A program made the translations under genes and the position numbers. From Candidatus Fermentibacterales bacterium (lineage in GTDB: Bacteria; Fermentibacterota; Fermentibacteria; Fermentibacterales; JAFGKQ01), in NCBI GenBank assembly GCA_016928495.1, contig JAFGKQ010000206.1:1-5048 (forward strand): a DNA stretch of 5,048 bases, written 5' to 3'. The notes under the pieces were generated by a model, which was not told the DNA's origin, did no database searches, and was given only the letters and a program-made list of their open reading frames with translations. This document shows, piece by piece, positions 182 through 5,048 of this stretch. Within the stretch, counting starts at the first letter, position 1. Each line of letters opens with the position of its first letter.

Positions 182-1153
182 ATGAGCAAGCCCAAGGTCG
201 CCTTCTACTGGGCGGCAAGCTGCGGCGGTTGCGAGATCTCGATCCTGGACATAGGAGACCGCATCCTGCCGCTGTCCCAGGCGGTGGACATCGTGTTCTG
301 GCCCTGCGCGATGGACATCAAGTACGAGCAGGTGCGCGGGTTCCGGGACGGCGAGATCGACCTCTGCCTGTTCAACGGGGCCATCAGGACCTCGGAGAAC
401 GAGGAGATGGCGAAGCTGCTGCGGCAGAAGTCGAAGATCCTGATAGCCTATGGCTCCTGCTCCTCGGAGGGATGCATCCCTGCTCTGGCCAACGCCAAGA
501 GCCGCAGGGAGATCCTCGAGAGGGCCTACCTCGAGACCCCCAGCACGGACAACCCCGAGGGCATCATCCCGCGGACCTCGACCGGGGTGCCGGAGGGCGA
601 GCTGGAGCTTCCCGAGTTCTACGATACGGTGCTGACCCTCGACCAGGTGGTCGAGGTGGACTACTACGTTCCGGGCTGCCCGCCGGTCGCCGACCAGACC
701 TGGGCGCTGTTCCAGGCTGTCCTCGAGGGAAAGCTGCCGGAACGGGGCTCGGTCGTCGGGGCCGGGGAGAAGATAGTCTGCGAGGACTGCCCGCTCGAGA
801 AGCAGGACAAGAAGATCTCCGGCTTCCACCGGCCCTTCGAGATAATCCCCGAGCCGGGCAAGTGCCTTCTCGAGCAGGGCATCTTCTGCGCGGGAATCGC
901 AACCCGAACGGGGTGCGGCGCGCAGTGCCCCAGCGTCGGGATGCCCTGCAGGGGCTGCTACGGGCCGCCCCCCAATGTCGTGGACCAGGGCGCCAAGATA
1001 GTCAGCGCCCTGGGCTCGATCATCGACGCGCGAGAGCCGGAAGACGTGAAGAGGATCATCGAGCAGATCCCCTACCCCATCGGCATGTTCTACCGCTTCG
1101 GCCTTGCCCACTCGATCCTTCGAAGGCGGACGATCAATGAGCAAGAGAATTAG
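182..1153 (+). CDS. mvhG: Group 3c-type [NiFe]-hydrogenase small subunit (MvhG/VhuG-like)
   Basis: This 323-residue protein is the iron-sulfur electron-transfer subunit of a cytoplasmic [NiFe]-hydrogenase and passes electrons between the active site of the large subunit and partner redox proteins. Proximal-cluster ligands are visible as SCGGCE (C14, C17), GSCSSEG (C93) and PGCPP (C166). The C-terminal half carries exactly eight more cysteines, C200, C203, C228, C236, C245, C249, C256 and C259, in the family pattern CEDCP, KCLLEQG, GCGAQCP and PCRGCYGP. They are enough for two further all-cysteine [4Fe-4S] clusters (inferred). There is no Tat signal peptide or membrane anchor, unlike group 1 and 2 enzymes, and the length matches group 3c. 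FWPCAMDIKYE and NGAIRTSENEEMA resemble MvhG/VhuG-type sequences. The start at ATG 182 follows a strong Shine-Dalgarno site. The 3' end overlaps the large-subunit gene by 17 bp. Group 3b is the main alternative; the exact subgroup is less certain than the family. Confidence 0.93.
   Translation: MSKPKVAFYWAASCGGCEISILDIGDRILPLSQAVDIVFWPCAMDIKYEQVRGFRDGEIDLCLFNGAIRTSENEEMAKLLRQKSKILIAYGSCSSEGCIPALANAKSRREILERAYLETPSTDNPEGIIPRTSTGVPEGELELPEFYDTVLTLDQVVEVDYYVPGCPPVADQTWALFQAVLEGKLPERGSVVGAGEKIVCEDCPLEKQDKKISGFHRPFEIIPEPGKCLLEQGIFCAGIATRTGCGAQCPSVGMPCRGCYGPPPNVVDQGAKIVSALGSIIDAREPEDVKRIIEQIPYPIGMFYRFGLAHSILRRRTINEQEN
1123..1130 (+). promoter_or_regulatory. Ribosome binding site inside mvhG that sets the mvhA start
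   Basis: AAGGCGGA lies inside the small-subunit coding sequence, 6 bases before the ATG at 1137. It favours that ATG over an in-frame ATG at 1104, which would add 11 residues before the conserved N-terminus (IDPITRLEGHG). The arrangement suggests translational coupling of the two subunits. Confidence 0.6.
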
Positions 1154-2603
1154 CATAGACCCCATCACCAGGCTGGAAGGCCACGGCCGGATCGAGATAT
1201 TCCTCGACGACAACGGAGACGTCGAGAACGTCTACTTCCAGGTCCCGGAGCTCAGGGGCTTCGAGAAGTTCTGCGAAGGGCATCCGGTCGAGGAGCTGGC
1301 CAGGATCACCACGCGCATCTGCGGCGTCTGTCCCGAGGCGCATCACATGGCCTCCGCCAAGGCCGCCGACGCCGTCTACAAGGTCGAGATACCCCCCACG
1401 GCGAAGAAGCTCCGCGAGCTCCTCTACAGCGCCTTCTTCGTGACGGACCACGCCACCCACTTCTATATCCTGGGCGGGCCGGACTTCATCATGGGCCCGG
1501 ATGCGGACCCGAAGGTCAGGAACATCCTCGGCGTGATCGGCAAGGTCGGCGAGGAGATAGGCCTCAGGGTCATCAACACCCGCCACGAGTGCCACAGGAT
1601 CATCAAGATGCTCGGCGGTCGTACCGTCCACCCGGTCTGTGCGATCCCGGGCGGGATCTCCAAGGCCCTCACGGAAGAGGAGCGCGAGGAGGTCGAGGCG
1701 ATAGCCCGGCGGACGGTGGAGTTCGGGAAGTTCAGCCTGGATCTCTTCGATGATATGGTCCTGGGCAACAAGGCTTACCTGGCCATGATCAGGAGCGACG
1801 CCTACTCGCACCGGACGCACTCGATAGGCACGGTGGACGAGAACAACCACGTCAACTTCTACGACGGGCAGCTCAGGGTGGTGGACACCGAGGGGGAGGA
1901 GCTTGCCAGGTTCCATCCCTCCGAGTACCTGGATCACCTGGCCGAGCGGGTCGAGCCCTGGACATACCTGAAGTTCCCCTATCTGAAGAAAGTGGGCTGG
2001 AAGGGGCTGGTGGACGGACAGGACAGCGGAGTCTACAAGGCGACTCCCCTGTCGAGGCTCAACGCGGCCGATGGGATGGCAACACCCATGGCGCAGGAGG
2101 CCTACGACAAGATGTTCTCGACCCTGGGCGGCAAGCCGGTACATGCCACCCTGGCCACGCACTGGGCCCGGCTGGTCGAGATGATGTACGCGGCCGAGAG
2201 GCTGCTCGAGCTGGCCACGGACCCGGAGATCACCTCGACGGACATCCGGGCGATCCCGAAGGCCACTCCGAGCGAGGGAGTGGGATGCGTGGAAGCTCCC
2301 AGGGGGACCCTGATCCACCACTACACCACGGACGAGCGGGGGCTGGTTCGCAAGGTCAACCTGATCGTCGGCACGACCAACAACAACGCCGCGATATGCA
2401 TGTCGCTCAAGAAGGCAGCACAGAAGGTGATACGGGGCGGCGCGCAGGTGAGCGAGGGTCTGCTCAACCTCGTCGAGATGGCGTTCAGGGCCTACGATCC
2501 CTGCCTGGCGTGCGCCACGCACTCGCTCCCGGGCGACATGCCTCTGGTCATCACCATTCACGACTCATCGGGACAGGTGGTGGACACGGTCAGCAGGGAC
2601 TAG
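1137..2603 (+). CDS. mvhA: Group 3c-type [NiFe]-hydrogenase large (catalytic) subunit (MvhA/VhuA-like)
   Basis: This 488-residue protein holds the Ni-Fe(CN)2CO site for reversible H2 oxidation. The N-terminus has the family signature IDPITRLEGHG (residues 7-17). The L1 motif RICGVCPEAHH gives nickel ligands C62 and C65, and the L2 motif DPCLACATH gives C456 and C459 with H462. All four ligands are cysteine; there is no in-frame UGA that would suggest the selenocysteine seen in some Vhu enzymes. EAPRG, with R389, matches the conserved arginine above the active site (inferred by family pattern). The 26 residues after H462 form the C-terminal extension that a HycI/HyaD-type endopeptidase removes after nickel insertion; no such protease is in this window. 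The start at 1137 is chosen because it has a Shine-Dalgarno site and the N-terminus then begins just before the conserved block. The gene overlaps mvhG by 17 bp in a different frame. HdrABC and MvhD-like partners are expected from the family but would have to lie outside the window. Confidence 0.93.
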   Translation: MSKRISIDPITRLEGHGRIEIFLDDNGDVENVYFQVPELRGFEKFCEGHPVEELARITTRICGVCPEAHHMASAKAADAVYKVEIPPTAKKLRELLYSAFFVTDHATHFYILGGPDFIMGPDADPKVRNILGVIGKVGEEIGLRVINTRHECHRIIKMLGGRTVHPVCAIPGGISKALTEEEREEVEAIARRTVEFGKFSLDLFDDMVLGNKAYLAMIRSDAYSHRTHSIGTVDENNHVNFYDGQLRVVDTEGEELARFHPSEYLDHLAERVEPWTYLKFPYLKKVGWKGLVDGQDSGVYKATPLSRLNAADGMATPMAQEAYDKMFSTLGGKPVHATLATHWARLVEMMYAAERLLELATDPEITSTDIRAIPKATPSEGVGCVEAPRGTLIHHYTTDERGLVRKVNLIVGTTNNNAAICMSLKKAAQKVIRGGAQVSEGLLNLVEMAFRAYDPCLACATHSLPGDMPLVITIHDSSGQVVDTVSRD

Positions 2604-2706
2604 CAGCAGAAGCCTGCGGACAGCCTCGTCGCGATCCGGCCGCTCTCGACCCGGGAGCATCGACCGGGCGCGAGGCCTTCGAACCTCAAGAAAGGCAGCC
2701 GCTCGA
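2604..2706 (+). other. Intergenic gap between mvhA and the fusion kinase gene
   Basis: This 103-bp GC-rich gap holds no gene. I see only weak structure. There is a 5-bp stem CCCGG/CCGGG at 2650-2654 and 2664-2668 with no following T-run. A distant inverted pair GCCTCG/CGAGGC lies at 2623-2628 and 2671-2676. There is no clear -35/-10 promoter. Lack of a convincing terminator leaves co-transcription of the kinase gene with the hydrogenase possible, but the gap is long enough for a promoter I cannot recognise. Confidence 0.5.
2688..2695 (+). promoter_or_regulatory. Probable ribosome binding site of the cNBD-acetate kinase gene
   Basis: AAGAAAGG lies 11 bases before the ATG at 2707. It is purine-rich but slightly far, so it is a moderate Shine-Dalgarno site. 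It supports translation from the start of the N-terminal sensor domain rather than from inside the gene. Confidence 0.5.
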
Positions 2707-4404
2707 ATGTCTGAAGTACTGCAACTCCTCTCCGACGTTCCGCCACTCCGGGACCTGTCGACGGCCGAGCTGGAGAATCTGATCAGGAGCAGCGATGTCA
2801 GGATCGCGTCGCCCGAAGGCGTAGTGGTCCGGAAGGGCAGGTCCTGGCCCCGGATCGGGATCGTTCTGGCCGGAGAGCTGGAGGTGGTCGCGACCGATGA
2901 CGGAGACAGCAGGTCGCGTGTCTCTCTGCTCGAGCCGGGCGACATGTTCGGGCAGCCGCCCTCGGGGAAGCAGTCCGCATCGGAAGTCGAAGTGCTCGCG
3001 GTTACCGAGTCGGTCTACCTCATGATCCCCTGGTACACCTGGGAGGAGATGATAGGTAGCAGAGACGGCTCTTCCGAGGCCCTGGCCTCGGTCTGCGTAA
3101 CACTCGATGCTCCGGACAGGACAAGGGGCCGTGCTCAGGCCAGGGCTGCCGCCGGGGCGGACCGTTACGGCCTCGGGCTCAGCTCGAGCAGGCCGGCGAA
3201 GATACTGGTCATCAACTGCGGCAGCTCGTCCCTCAAGTACAACTTCTACGACACGCATGACCGCTCGAACGATCGGGAGGGCATAGTCGAGCGTATCGGG
3301 ATCGAGGGTGGCCGGCTGGTCCATCGCCCGGGTGACGGCACCAAGGTCATCAGGGAGCTCGGCAGGATCAACCACGACGTAGCCTTCGAAGCGGTGGTCG
3401 AAGTGCTTACGGACAGCGAGATGGGAGTCATCCGGGACCTGTCCGATATCACGGGTGTGGGTCACAGGGTCGTCCACGGGGGCTCGAAGTACAGCGATCC
3501 GGTCGTCATAGACGACGATGTGGTATCCGAGATCGAGAGGCTCTGCAGCTTGGCCCCGCTCCATAACCCCCATAACCTGGCAGCCATAAGGAAGAGCATG
3601 GCTCTGATGCCCCAGGTGCCGCAGGTGGCCGTCTTCGACACGGGGTTCCACCAGAGGATGCCGGCTCACGCCTACATGTACGCGCTTCCATACAGCTTCT
3701 ACGAGCAGCAGGGCATCAGACGCTACGGCTTCCACGGCATTTCCCACAACTACCTGGCGCTGCGGGCCGCATCCTGCCTCGAGAGGGACGTTGCCGATCT
3801 CAGGATCATCACCTGCCACCTCGGCAACGGCTCGTCGGTCTCGGCGGTGGACCGTGGGAGATCCGTGGATACCAGCATGGGCCTCACGCCGCTGGAAGGA
3901 CTCGTCATGGGCACCAGGAGCGGCGACATAGACCCCGGCGCGATGCTCCACATGGCGCGGACCAACGACATGGGGTTCGAGGAGCTCGACAGCCTGCTCA
4001 ACAGGAAGAGCGGAGTCCTGGGCCTCTCCGGCATCTCCAACGACTTCAGGGAGATCGAGGACGGCGCCAGGCAGGGCAACAGGCTCGCGCTCCTGGCCCT
4101 CCACGTCTTCTGCCACAGGCTCCGCAAGTACATCGGGGCCTACATCGCGGTTATGGGCGGCCTCGATGTCATGGTCTTCTCCGCCGGCATCGGCGAGCGC
4201 AGCCCCTGGGTCAGGAGCCTGACCTGCCAGGGCCTGTCGGAACTCGGCATCGAGCTGGAAGACAGGGTCAACAGGTACGGCTACGCGGGTGGGGACGAGG
4301 TCATCGACCTCTCTTCGAAGAAGTCCCGCGTGAAGGTACTGGCCATGCAGACGGACGAGGGCAGAATGATCGCCCGCGAGACCATCCGCGCCCTGGACAG
4401 ATAG
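2707..4404 (+). CDS. ackA: Acetate kinase with an N-terminal cyclic-nucleotide-binding-like domain (fusion protein)
   Basis: This 565-residue protein has two parts. Residues 1-133 form a Crp-type cyclic-nucleotide-binding fold: an N-terminal helix (LRDLSTAELENLI), the beta-roll segment IGIVLAGELEVVA, then LLEPGDMFG at the phosphate-binding cassette. A linker (about 134-164) leads to a full-length acetate kinase of about 400 residues, which interconverts acetyl phosphate plus ADP with acetate plus ATP in the cytoplasm. Kinase hallmarks are present in order: LVINCGSSSLK (N170, S173, S175, K177), GHRVVHGG (R254), APLHNPHN, FDTGFHQRMP (D311), YGFHGISH (H343), CHLGNGSSV (N374), MGTRSGDIDPG (R404), GIGERS and TDEG (E551). 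These correspond to the Methanosarcina AckA active-site residues N7, R91, D148, H180, N211, R241 and E384. No helix-turn-helix follows the sensor domain, so it is not a transcription factor. In the cassette the usual Glu and Arg appear to be Gln (Q83, Q89) and the loop is shorter, so cAMP or cGMP binding is uncertain. The usual GIGEN motif reads GIGER. There is no internal ATG at the kinase boundary. The kinase assignment is firm; ligand control of the kinase is inference. Confidence 0.93.
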   Translation: MSEVLQLLSDVPPLRDLSTAELENLIRSSDVRIASPEGVVVRKGRSWPRIGIVLAGELEVVATDDGDSRSRVSLLEPGDMFGQPPSGKQSASEVEVLAVTESVYLMIPWYTWEEMIGSRDGSSEALASVCVTLDAPDRTRGRAQARAAAGADRYGLGLSSSRPAKILVINCGSSSLKYNFYDTHDRSNDREGIVERIGIEGGRLVHRPGDGTKVIRELGRINHDVAFEAVVEVLTDSEMGVIRDLSDITGVGHRVVHGGSKYSDPVVIDDDVVSEIERLCSLAPLHNPHNLAAIRKSMALMPQVPQVAVFDTGFHQRMPAHAYMYALPYSFYEQQGIRRYGFHGISHNYLALRAASCLERDVADLRIITCHLGNGSSVSAVDRGRSVDTSMGLTPLEGLVMGTRSGDIDPGAMLHMARTNDMGFEELDSLLNRKSGVLGLSGISNDFREIEDGARQGNRLALLALHVFCHRLRKYIGAYIAVMGGLDVMVFSAGIGERSPWVRSLTCQGLSELGIELEDRVNRYGYAGGDEVIDLSSKKSRVKVLAMQTDEGRMIARETIRALDR

Positions 4405-4432
4405 GAGATATGGGGACACAACACTTATCTCC
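4404..4432 (+). repeat. REP-like unit 1 (outer subtype)
   Basis: Stem GGAGATA at 4404-4410 pairs with TATCTCC at 4426-4432 around the 15-nt loop TGGGGACACAACACT. Its first base is the last base of the acetate kinase TAG stop codon. Confidence 0.85.
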
Positions 4433-4437
4433 TGCTT

Positions 4438-4465
4438 GAGATAAGGGTACATAACATCTATCTCC
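4438..4465 (+). repeat. REP-like unit 2 (inner subtype)
   Basis: Stem GAGATA at 4438-4443 pairs with TATCTC at 4459-4464 around the 15-nt loop AGGGTACATAACATC. It has the same orientation as unit 1 and differs from it in the loop (CATAACATC instead of CACAACACT). Confidence 0.85.
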
Positions 4466-4495: not shown

Positions 4496-4524
4496 GGAGA
4501 TAGATGTTATGTCCCTTTATCTCC
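4496..4524 (-). repeat. REP-like unit 3 (inner subtype, inverted)
   Basis: Stem GGAGATA at 4496-4502 pairs with TATCTCC at 4518-4524 around the 15-nt loop GATGTTATGTCCCTT. It is the inverted partner of unit 2 with two mismatches. Its last base falls in the stop codon of the leftward gene. Confidence 0.85.
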
Positions 4525-5048
4525 TATCTCTCGCCATGACGCAGGAGATAAGTGTTGTGTCCCCTTATCTCAGGCACGGTCATCGAGCCGTTCATCAGAA
4601 CGACTACGCCGGCATTGGCACCCGCTCTGAGAATCTCCTCATCCAGGGTCTTCTGCAGGTCGTGACACGGCTCGATGAAGCATGACTCGAGCACAGCATC
4701 CTCGAGGTCCGTGCAGGCGAGGATAGTCGATCTGCCTGCAGTCTCCGCTATCCTGGCGGCCTTGTGCATTCCCAGCCTGTAGTCCAACTCTCTCAGACCC
4801 TCGCTCACCTCCCGGGGTGACCCGAAGCTCGAGAGCAGGTCCACGAAACCTCTCTCCCCCACGCCTTCCGCGCACCTGGCCACCAGGATCAGGCTGCCCC
4901 CTTCCGCCAGCGCCAGCTTGCCGTGCTCGATCGCCTTGTGGGCCTGGTACAGGTCGACATCGAGCGGTGGGACAGCCACCGTGATCACCACTTCCACCCT
5001 GCCGGAGACCGGAACGCAGTACACCTCCGCCGCTCTCTCCACGGCAGC
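4524..5048 (-). CDS. LarA-type (DUF2088) nickel-dependent 2-hydroxyacid racemase homologue, C-terminal part (5' partial)
   Basis: The minus-strand frame is open to the end of the window and gives the last 174 residues; the start lies beyond base 5048. The first ATG/GTG-like codon at 5042-5040 is an internal GTG, not a supported start. The segment matches the C-terminal domain of LarA-family proteins, cytoplasmic lactate racemases or related 2-hydroxyacid racemases/epimerases that use a nickel-pincer nucleotide cofactor. Diagnostic parts are PPLDVDLYQAHKA (residues 27-39), with Gln35 and Lys38 at the positions of the substrate-binding Gln and Lys of lactate racemase, followed by GGSLILVARCAEGVGERGF. 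The catalytic histidines and the pincer lysine belong to the unseen N-terminal domain. LarA itself has a GGYPKD-like motif where this protein has AVPPLD, as in the broader DUF2088 group, so the substrate is open and no gene symbol is given. The native family end is near MTVPE. The last 15 residues (E160-R174) and the TAG come from the palindrome. Confidence 0.82.
   Translation of the reverse strand, partial: AAVERAAEVYCVPVSGRVEVVITVAVPPLDVDLYQAHKAIEHGKLALAEGGSLILVARCAEGVGERGFVDLLSSFGSPREVSEGLRELDYRLGMHKAARIAETAGRSTILACTDLEDAVLESCFIEPCHDLQKTLDEEILRAGANAGVVVLMNGSMTVPEIRGHNTYLLRHGER
4544..4572 (-). repeat. REP-like unit 4 (outer subtype, inverted)
   Basis: Stem GGAGATA at 4544-4550 pairs with TATCTC at 4566-4571 around the loop AGTGTTGTGTCCCCT. 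It is the near-perfect inverted partner of unit 1. It is read as coding sequence by the C-terminus of the leftward LarA-like gene. Confidence 0.85.

Follow-up and report, generated by a model that had tools for sequence, protein, structure and literature searches.

Acetate kinase (AckA) is usually a stand-alone enzyme that lacks a sensor domain. The kinase encoded in the contig analyzed here, which comes from a Candidatus Fermentibacterales bacterium (hereafter, the window; 5,048 nucleotides), resembles the known members of the family (PF00871, TIGR00016; structures 2iir and 1tuu) in possessing a complete kinase domain with the catalytic residues kept, but differs from them in carrying a Crp-like domain, about 160 residues long, at the N-terminus and in belonging to a separate AckA lineage. 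Fusions of AckA with the phosphotransacylase PduL, such as WP_011798166.1 of Polaromonas naphthalenivorans, combine these two enzymes in one chain, as do two homologs of the window protein (those in genomes G005 and G121); however, the Polaromonas protein has no Crp-like domain and belongs to a distant AckA branch, whereas the window protein carries the Crp-like domain and lacks PduL. The mycobacterial protein acetyltransferase Pat (NF058543) is regulated by cAMP and similarly contains a domain of the cNMP family preceding a metabolic-type enzyme, but its catalytic domain is a different one and the sensors of the fusion proteins lack the arginine of the phosphate-binding cassette. Finally, the family 2B encapsulin shell protein (NF041163) carries a Crp/Fnr-type cNMP domain without being a transcription regulator (PMC8049743). 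Taken alone, the window domain matches this family best among the NCBIfam models, but the score is far below the family cut-off and the shell protein has no kinase. No description of a cNMP-acetate kinase fusion was found in the literature searched, and the Crp-like-AckA(-PduL) proteins apparently represent a rare lineage built of known parts that is undescribed there.

Architecture of the fusion protein

The fusion gene (positions 2707-4404, plus strand) encodes a protein of 565 amino acids in which a cNMP_binding-like domain and an acetate kinase are joined in one open frame, as indicated by the open reading frame listing and the domain scans. The Crp-like domain (residues 36-116; 2812-3054, plus strand) is recognized only weakly in the Pfam scan (PF00027, 31.4 bits, E 1.9e-7), above the gathering cut-off of 27.5 bits, whereas the homologs score 64.8-68.9 bits; nevertheless, a profile of the six fusion sensors strongly matches the structures of PKG, PKA-R, SthK and CRP. 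The helices and the beta-roll of this domain span about residues 1-133. The interdomain helix or linker (residues 117-164; 3055-3198, plus strand), which ends after the conserved DRYGL motif, is 4 residues shorter in the window than in the homologs. It is followed by the complete acetate kinase domain (residues 165-557; 3199-4377, plus strand), which aligns with positions 1-392 of the 392 in the PF00871 profile (469.8 bits). The C-terminal helix-turn-helix of Crp/Fnr transcription regulators was not detected in the fusion by either Pfam or NCBIfam scans. The single uninterrupted frame and the two-domain architecture proposed in an earlier, sequence-only reading are thus borne out by the Pfam domains and by recurrence in other genomes, and the data also support the proposed attachment of a Crp-type domain to a metabolic enzyme.

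The acetate kinase domain

The kinase scores 471.5 bits against TIGR00016 (cut-off 293.4), a subfamily model that covers acetate as well as propionate kinases. Thirteen positions of Methanosarcina thermophila AckA (1tuu), N7, S10, S12, K14, R91, H123, D148, F179, H180, H208, N211, R241 and E384, which we take to have catalytic or substrate-binding roles, are all matched in the window protein (in the same order, N170, S173, S175, K177, R254, H286, D311, F342, H343, H371, N374, R404 and E551), and most of them are also invariant among 26 AckA sequences (the window protein and 25 others). In the predicted model, the ten-residue blocks beyond residue 160 mostly have pLDDT values of 83-96, with a low stretch at residues 395-406. 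For most of the sensor, which was modeled without homologous rows, pLDDT is below 50, too low to place this domain on the AckA dimer. The full-length profile match and the 13 matching positions agree with the earlier description of a complete kinase that keeps its visible catalytic residues, and the best reading of these data is an enzymatically active acetate kinase.

Second copies of AckA were sought in three genomes. In the assembled genome of the window (G000), no AckA other than the fusion was detected because the two remaining matches are butyrate-kinase-like, with 24-29% identity along part of the chain; similarly, G005 and G032 yield no second full AckA match.

Phyletic distribution and origin

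The search for the two-domain architecture and the mapping of its taxonomy, both proposed in the earlier reading, reveal a narrow distribution. Within the phylum, represented by 42 genomes from one order and three families, the fusion is present in four, namely G000 of family f1 and G005, G032 and G040 of family f2; in the last two, the contig ends inside AckA. Two more fusions are found among the 396 genomes of an Acidobacteriota sample, taken from the phylum to which an Aminicenantes genome belongs: that of G121 is complete whereas that of G253 (L085, 1471-2535) is cut by a contig end and is more distant. None of the 344 genomes in the Spirochaetota sample contains the fusion; seven candidate matches there cover the AckA part only and were rejected. 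Among plasmids, no record contains the whole query, the best ones encoding AckA-PduL without the sensor or AckA alone, and no relative of the sensor was found on viral contigs. Another candidate, the AckA of G008 that lies in one long frame, was discarded as well: the gap in it is a run of N rather than an inserted domain.

In the tree of 66 AckA domains, the five closer fusions form one clade (support 100/99) apart from the resident AckA, and the phylum's 25 AckA that stand alone comprise a separate clade (100/100). Given this separation, the gene was probably acquired horizontally, and acquisition accompanied by replacement of the resident gene is the simplest reading; the gain of an additional domain by a resident AckA is rejected by the tree topology. 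The lineage is rare and has probably spread horizontally. G121 branches outside the fusion members of the phylum. The AckA of G253, for which the sequence is partial, does not group with the main fusion clade; its position is weakly supported, and it may represent an independent fusion.

The PduL domain and the supply of acetyl-phosphate

The complete homologs in G005 and G121 are 773 amino acids long and contain a C-terminal PduL phosphotransacylase after AckA (in G005, 223 bits for PTAC; in G121, 257.5 bits for the phosphate propanoyltransferase model). These complete triple fusions from two phyla are located at L050, 1489-3810 (the same as L088, 8342-10663) and at L084, 67-2388. In the window, the frame stops after AckA, without a C-terminal PduL; no PduL was found in the assembled G000 and, within the 42 genomes of the phylum, none outside G005. 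Because G121 branches outside the members from this phylum, parsimony suggests that the form with the Crp-like, AckA and PduL domains is probably ancestral and that the window copy lost PduL. Sensor-free AckA-PduL chains exist in Pseudomonadota. Such chains are encoded on plasmids of Polaromonas and Paracoccus (L116, 3998-5779; L117, 2998-4761), where they are annotated only as acetate/propionate family kinases.

An observation at odds with an active acetate-forming kinase in the window is that G000, at 81% completeness, has no clear source of acetyl-phosphate: PduL and a typical Pta are not found in the assembly, which encodes only two PTB-like proteins. Most of the 42 genomes of the phylum, including those with AckA, similarly have only PTB-like proteins and neither a typical Pta nor PduL.

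Genomic neighborhood

The assembly to which the window belongs, as contig C301, comprises 2.3 Mb in 337 contigs. Just upstream of the fusion and on the same strand, there are genes for the small and large subunits of a [NiFe]-hydrogenase, MvhG/VhuG-like (182-1153, plus strand) and MvhA/VhuA-like (1137-2603, plus strand, from the ATG at 1137; the listed open reading frame starts with TTG at 1104), and 103 bases separate the end of the MvhA gene from the fusion gene. The convergent downstream gene, cut by the contig end, encodes the C-terminal part of a LarA-type Ni-dependent 2-hydroxyacid racemase (4524-5048, minus strand) whose best NCBIfam match is the malate racemase LarAH6, below the cut-off; in general, malate-racemase models are the best ones for the LarA proteins of these loci, with scores below the cut-off. 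In G005, the gene order is isocitrate dehydrogenase (IDH)-PEPCK-LarA-MaeB(PTA)-fusion-GlcD-GlcF/Hdr-like-FeS-MvhD-MvhG-MvhA-HycI (hydrogenase protease). The MvhG, MvhA and LarA genes of the window belong to the same gene set, in a different order. A malic enzyme-PTA gene precedes the fusion in G032 and G040. The fusion of G121 is flanked by PilT and a GTPase, and the hydrogenase and 2-hydroxyacid context is absent. The best inference from these arrangements is that, in the phylum, the fusion belongs to a predicted module that would convert 2-hydroxyacids to acetate and dispose of the electrons as H2.

The Crp-like domain and its ligand pocket

Binding of cAMP or cGMP was judged by the presence of the arginine and the glutamate of the phosphate-binding cassette. 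The alignments show that the arginine (of ...PR[ST]A[TS]...) is replaced by serine or threonine in all six fusion sensors, so that the expectation of cyclic nucleotide binding fails throughout the family; in the window, the pocket is eroded further, with glutamine in place of the ribose-binding glutamate. The cassette that reads GEMSLLTGEP[ST]CADV in the other members of the fusion clade, where it is strongly conserved across two phyla, is represented in the window by the remnant GQPPSGKQSASEVEV (residues 82-96; 2950-2994, plus strand), with serine at the arginine position. The corresponding segment of G253 is GEISLMTGDRTIVSI, and the cassette of the six-sensor profile aligns to sequences such as GERALLYDEPRTASI, again with serine or threonine opposite the arginine. 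Because the part that grips cAMP is missing, the window domain is probably not a cAMP switch. The explanation that appears best overall, to which we assign a probability of about 55%, is that the protein is an active acetate kinase whose Crp-like domain belongs to a type that serves for control or docking without the use of cAMP, the pocket being eroded in the window copy. Two of the alternatives, a vestigial domain and a docking module, are more specific versions that overlap this explanation.

The domain might be vestigial in the lineage of the window, its function having been lost, perhaps along with PduL, such that it persists only through the in-frame fusion. The window beta-roll keeps only 12 of the 34 columns that are invariant in the other four members and has lost 22, compared with 54 of 58 otherwise invariant columns kept in the N-terminal half of the kinase, and the linker helix is shortened. 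By relative-rate counts, unique changes on the window branch significantly outnumber those on its sister branch (29:12, p 0.01, and 31:9, p 0.0007), indicating faster divergence. When the beta-roll is contrasted with the kinase, the excess reaches significance with G040 as the reference (p 0.013) but not with G005 (p 0.24). Nevertheless, the frame is intact over 164 codons, with no stop and with a coding-like GC content at third positions, and complete loss of function is a possible but tentative reading.

A docking or oligomerization module that holds the kinase near malic enzyme-PTA, PduL or the hydrogenase, or else extends the AckA dimer, would fit the fusion with PduL, the adjacency of the MaeB-PTA, GlcD and Mvh genes, and the constraint on a domain that lacks the canonical pocket. 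Indeed, a comparison of G040 with G032 shows purifying selection on the beta-roll (dN 0.053 versus dS 0.297), similarly to the kinase, and the NCBIfam model nearest to the window domain, that of the family 2B encapsulin shell protein, points in the same direction (36.5 bits, far below the cut-off of 400). However, the high conservation of GEMSLLTGEP[ST]CADV in the other members of the clade across two phyla points to a pocket that has a function and not just a scaffold, and we regard a docking module as possible but not likely.

Classical allostery, in which cAMP or cGMP bound to the N-terminal domain would set the activity of the kinase as in the cAMP-regulated acetyltransferases of mycobacteria, is improbable. 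The domain is recognizably of the cNMP family, the sensor of G005 weakly matches mycobacterial Pat (45.7 bits against a cut-off of 460), and the glycine and glutamate of the cassette are retained in five of the six homologs, but the universal replacement of the phosphate-binding arginine and the loss of the glutamate along with almost the whole cassette in the window copy do not support the nucleotide-binding sensor envisaged in the sequence-only reading.

The junction itself raises no such doubts. The GC content at third codon positions is 0.76-0.88 throughout the sensor and across its junction with the kinase, through which the two alternative forward frames do not stay open, and the motif [DP]YG[LF].L....P.K[IV]LVINCGSSSLK is common to the window, G005, G032, G040 and G121; G253 differs slightly at the start (PLKILVINC). 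The open frame alone is weak evidence here because, in this G+C-rich DNA, the opposite strand likewise contains an open frame of 588 codons (2686-4452, minus strand), most likely a by-product of the high G+C content. Thus, the coding signal that continues across the junction and the recurrence of the same junction in five other genomes indicate that the fusion is genuine. An assembly or frame artefact that joined two genes, and in particular a join at about 3110-3200 of the kind that the earlier reading had raised as a concern, is for practical purposes excluded on these grounds even though the assembly is fragmented, and the related concern that the two parts might always be separate genes in homologs is dispelled by the same five genomes.

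Functional implications

Under the preferred reading, that of an active kinase with a Crp-like domain not using cAMP, the window protein would produce ATP in the final conversion of acetyl-phosphate to acetate, assuming activity and this direction of flux. The likely full form of the lineage, with the Crp-like domain, AckA and PduL, would convert acetyl-CoA to acetate and ATP within one chain. The gene cluster of the host would oxidize 2-hydroxyacids such as malate or lactate, with the electrons leaving through the Mvh-type hydrogenase. Across the lineage, the Crp-like domain might modulate or dock the kinase via a ligand or partner other than cAMP or cGMP. In the window copy, given the absence of PduL and the eroded pocket, it is probably ligand-independent, that is, structural, docking or vestigial; several domains of the Crp family sense other ligands through unrelated pocket residues, so that erosion of the cNMP cassette is no proof of ligand independence.

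A more specific and so far speculative extension is that the conserved GEMSLLTGEP[ST]CADV pocket of this undescribed Crp-like-AckA(-PduL) family senses a non-nucleotide signal and matches the yield of ATP to hydrogenase-linked oxidation of 2-hydroxyacids, the window protein being a derived form that lost PduL and remodeled the pocket. Candidate signals include a CoA thioester, an acyl phosphate, a 2-hydroxyacid, or the redox state perceived via the conserved cysteine.

The case illustrates that the Pfam cNMP_binding label is no warrant for control by cAMP. The complete triple fusions of G005 and G121 can be tested in vitro and are more suitable for experiments than the window protein. The fusion lineage stands in for the resident AckA in several genomes and is located near an Mvh-type hydrogenase in two families. 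If the proposed interpretation is correct, the built-in Crp-like domain, joined by PduL in the fuller form, would make this fermentative, ATP-producing step a directly regulated one.
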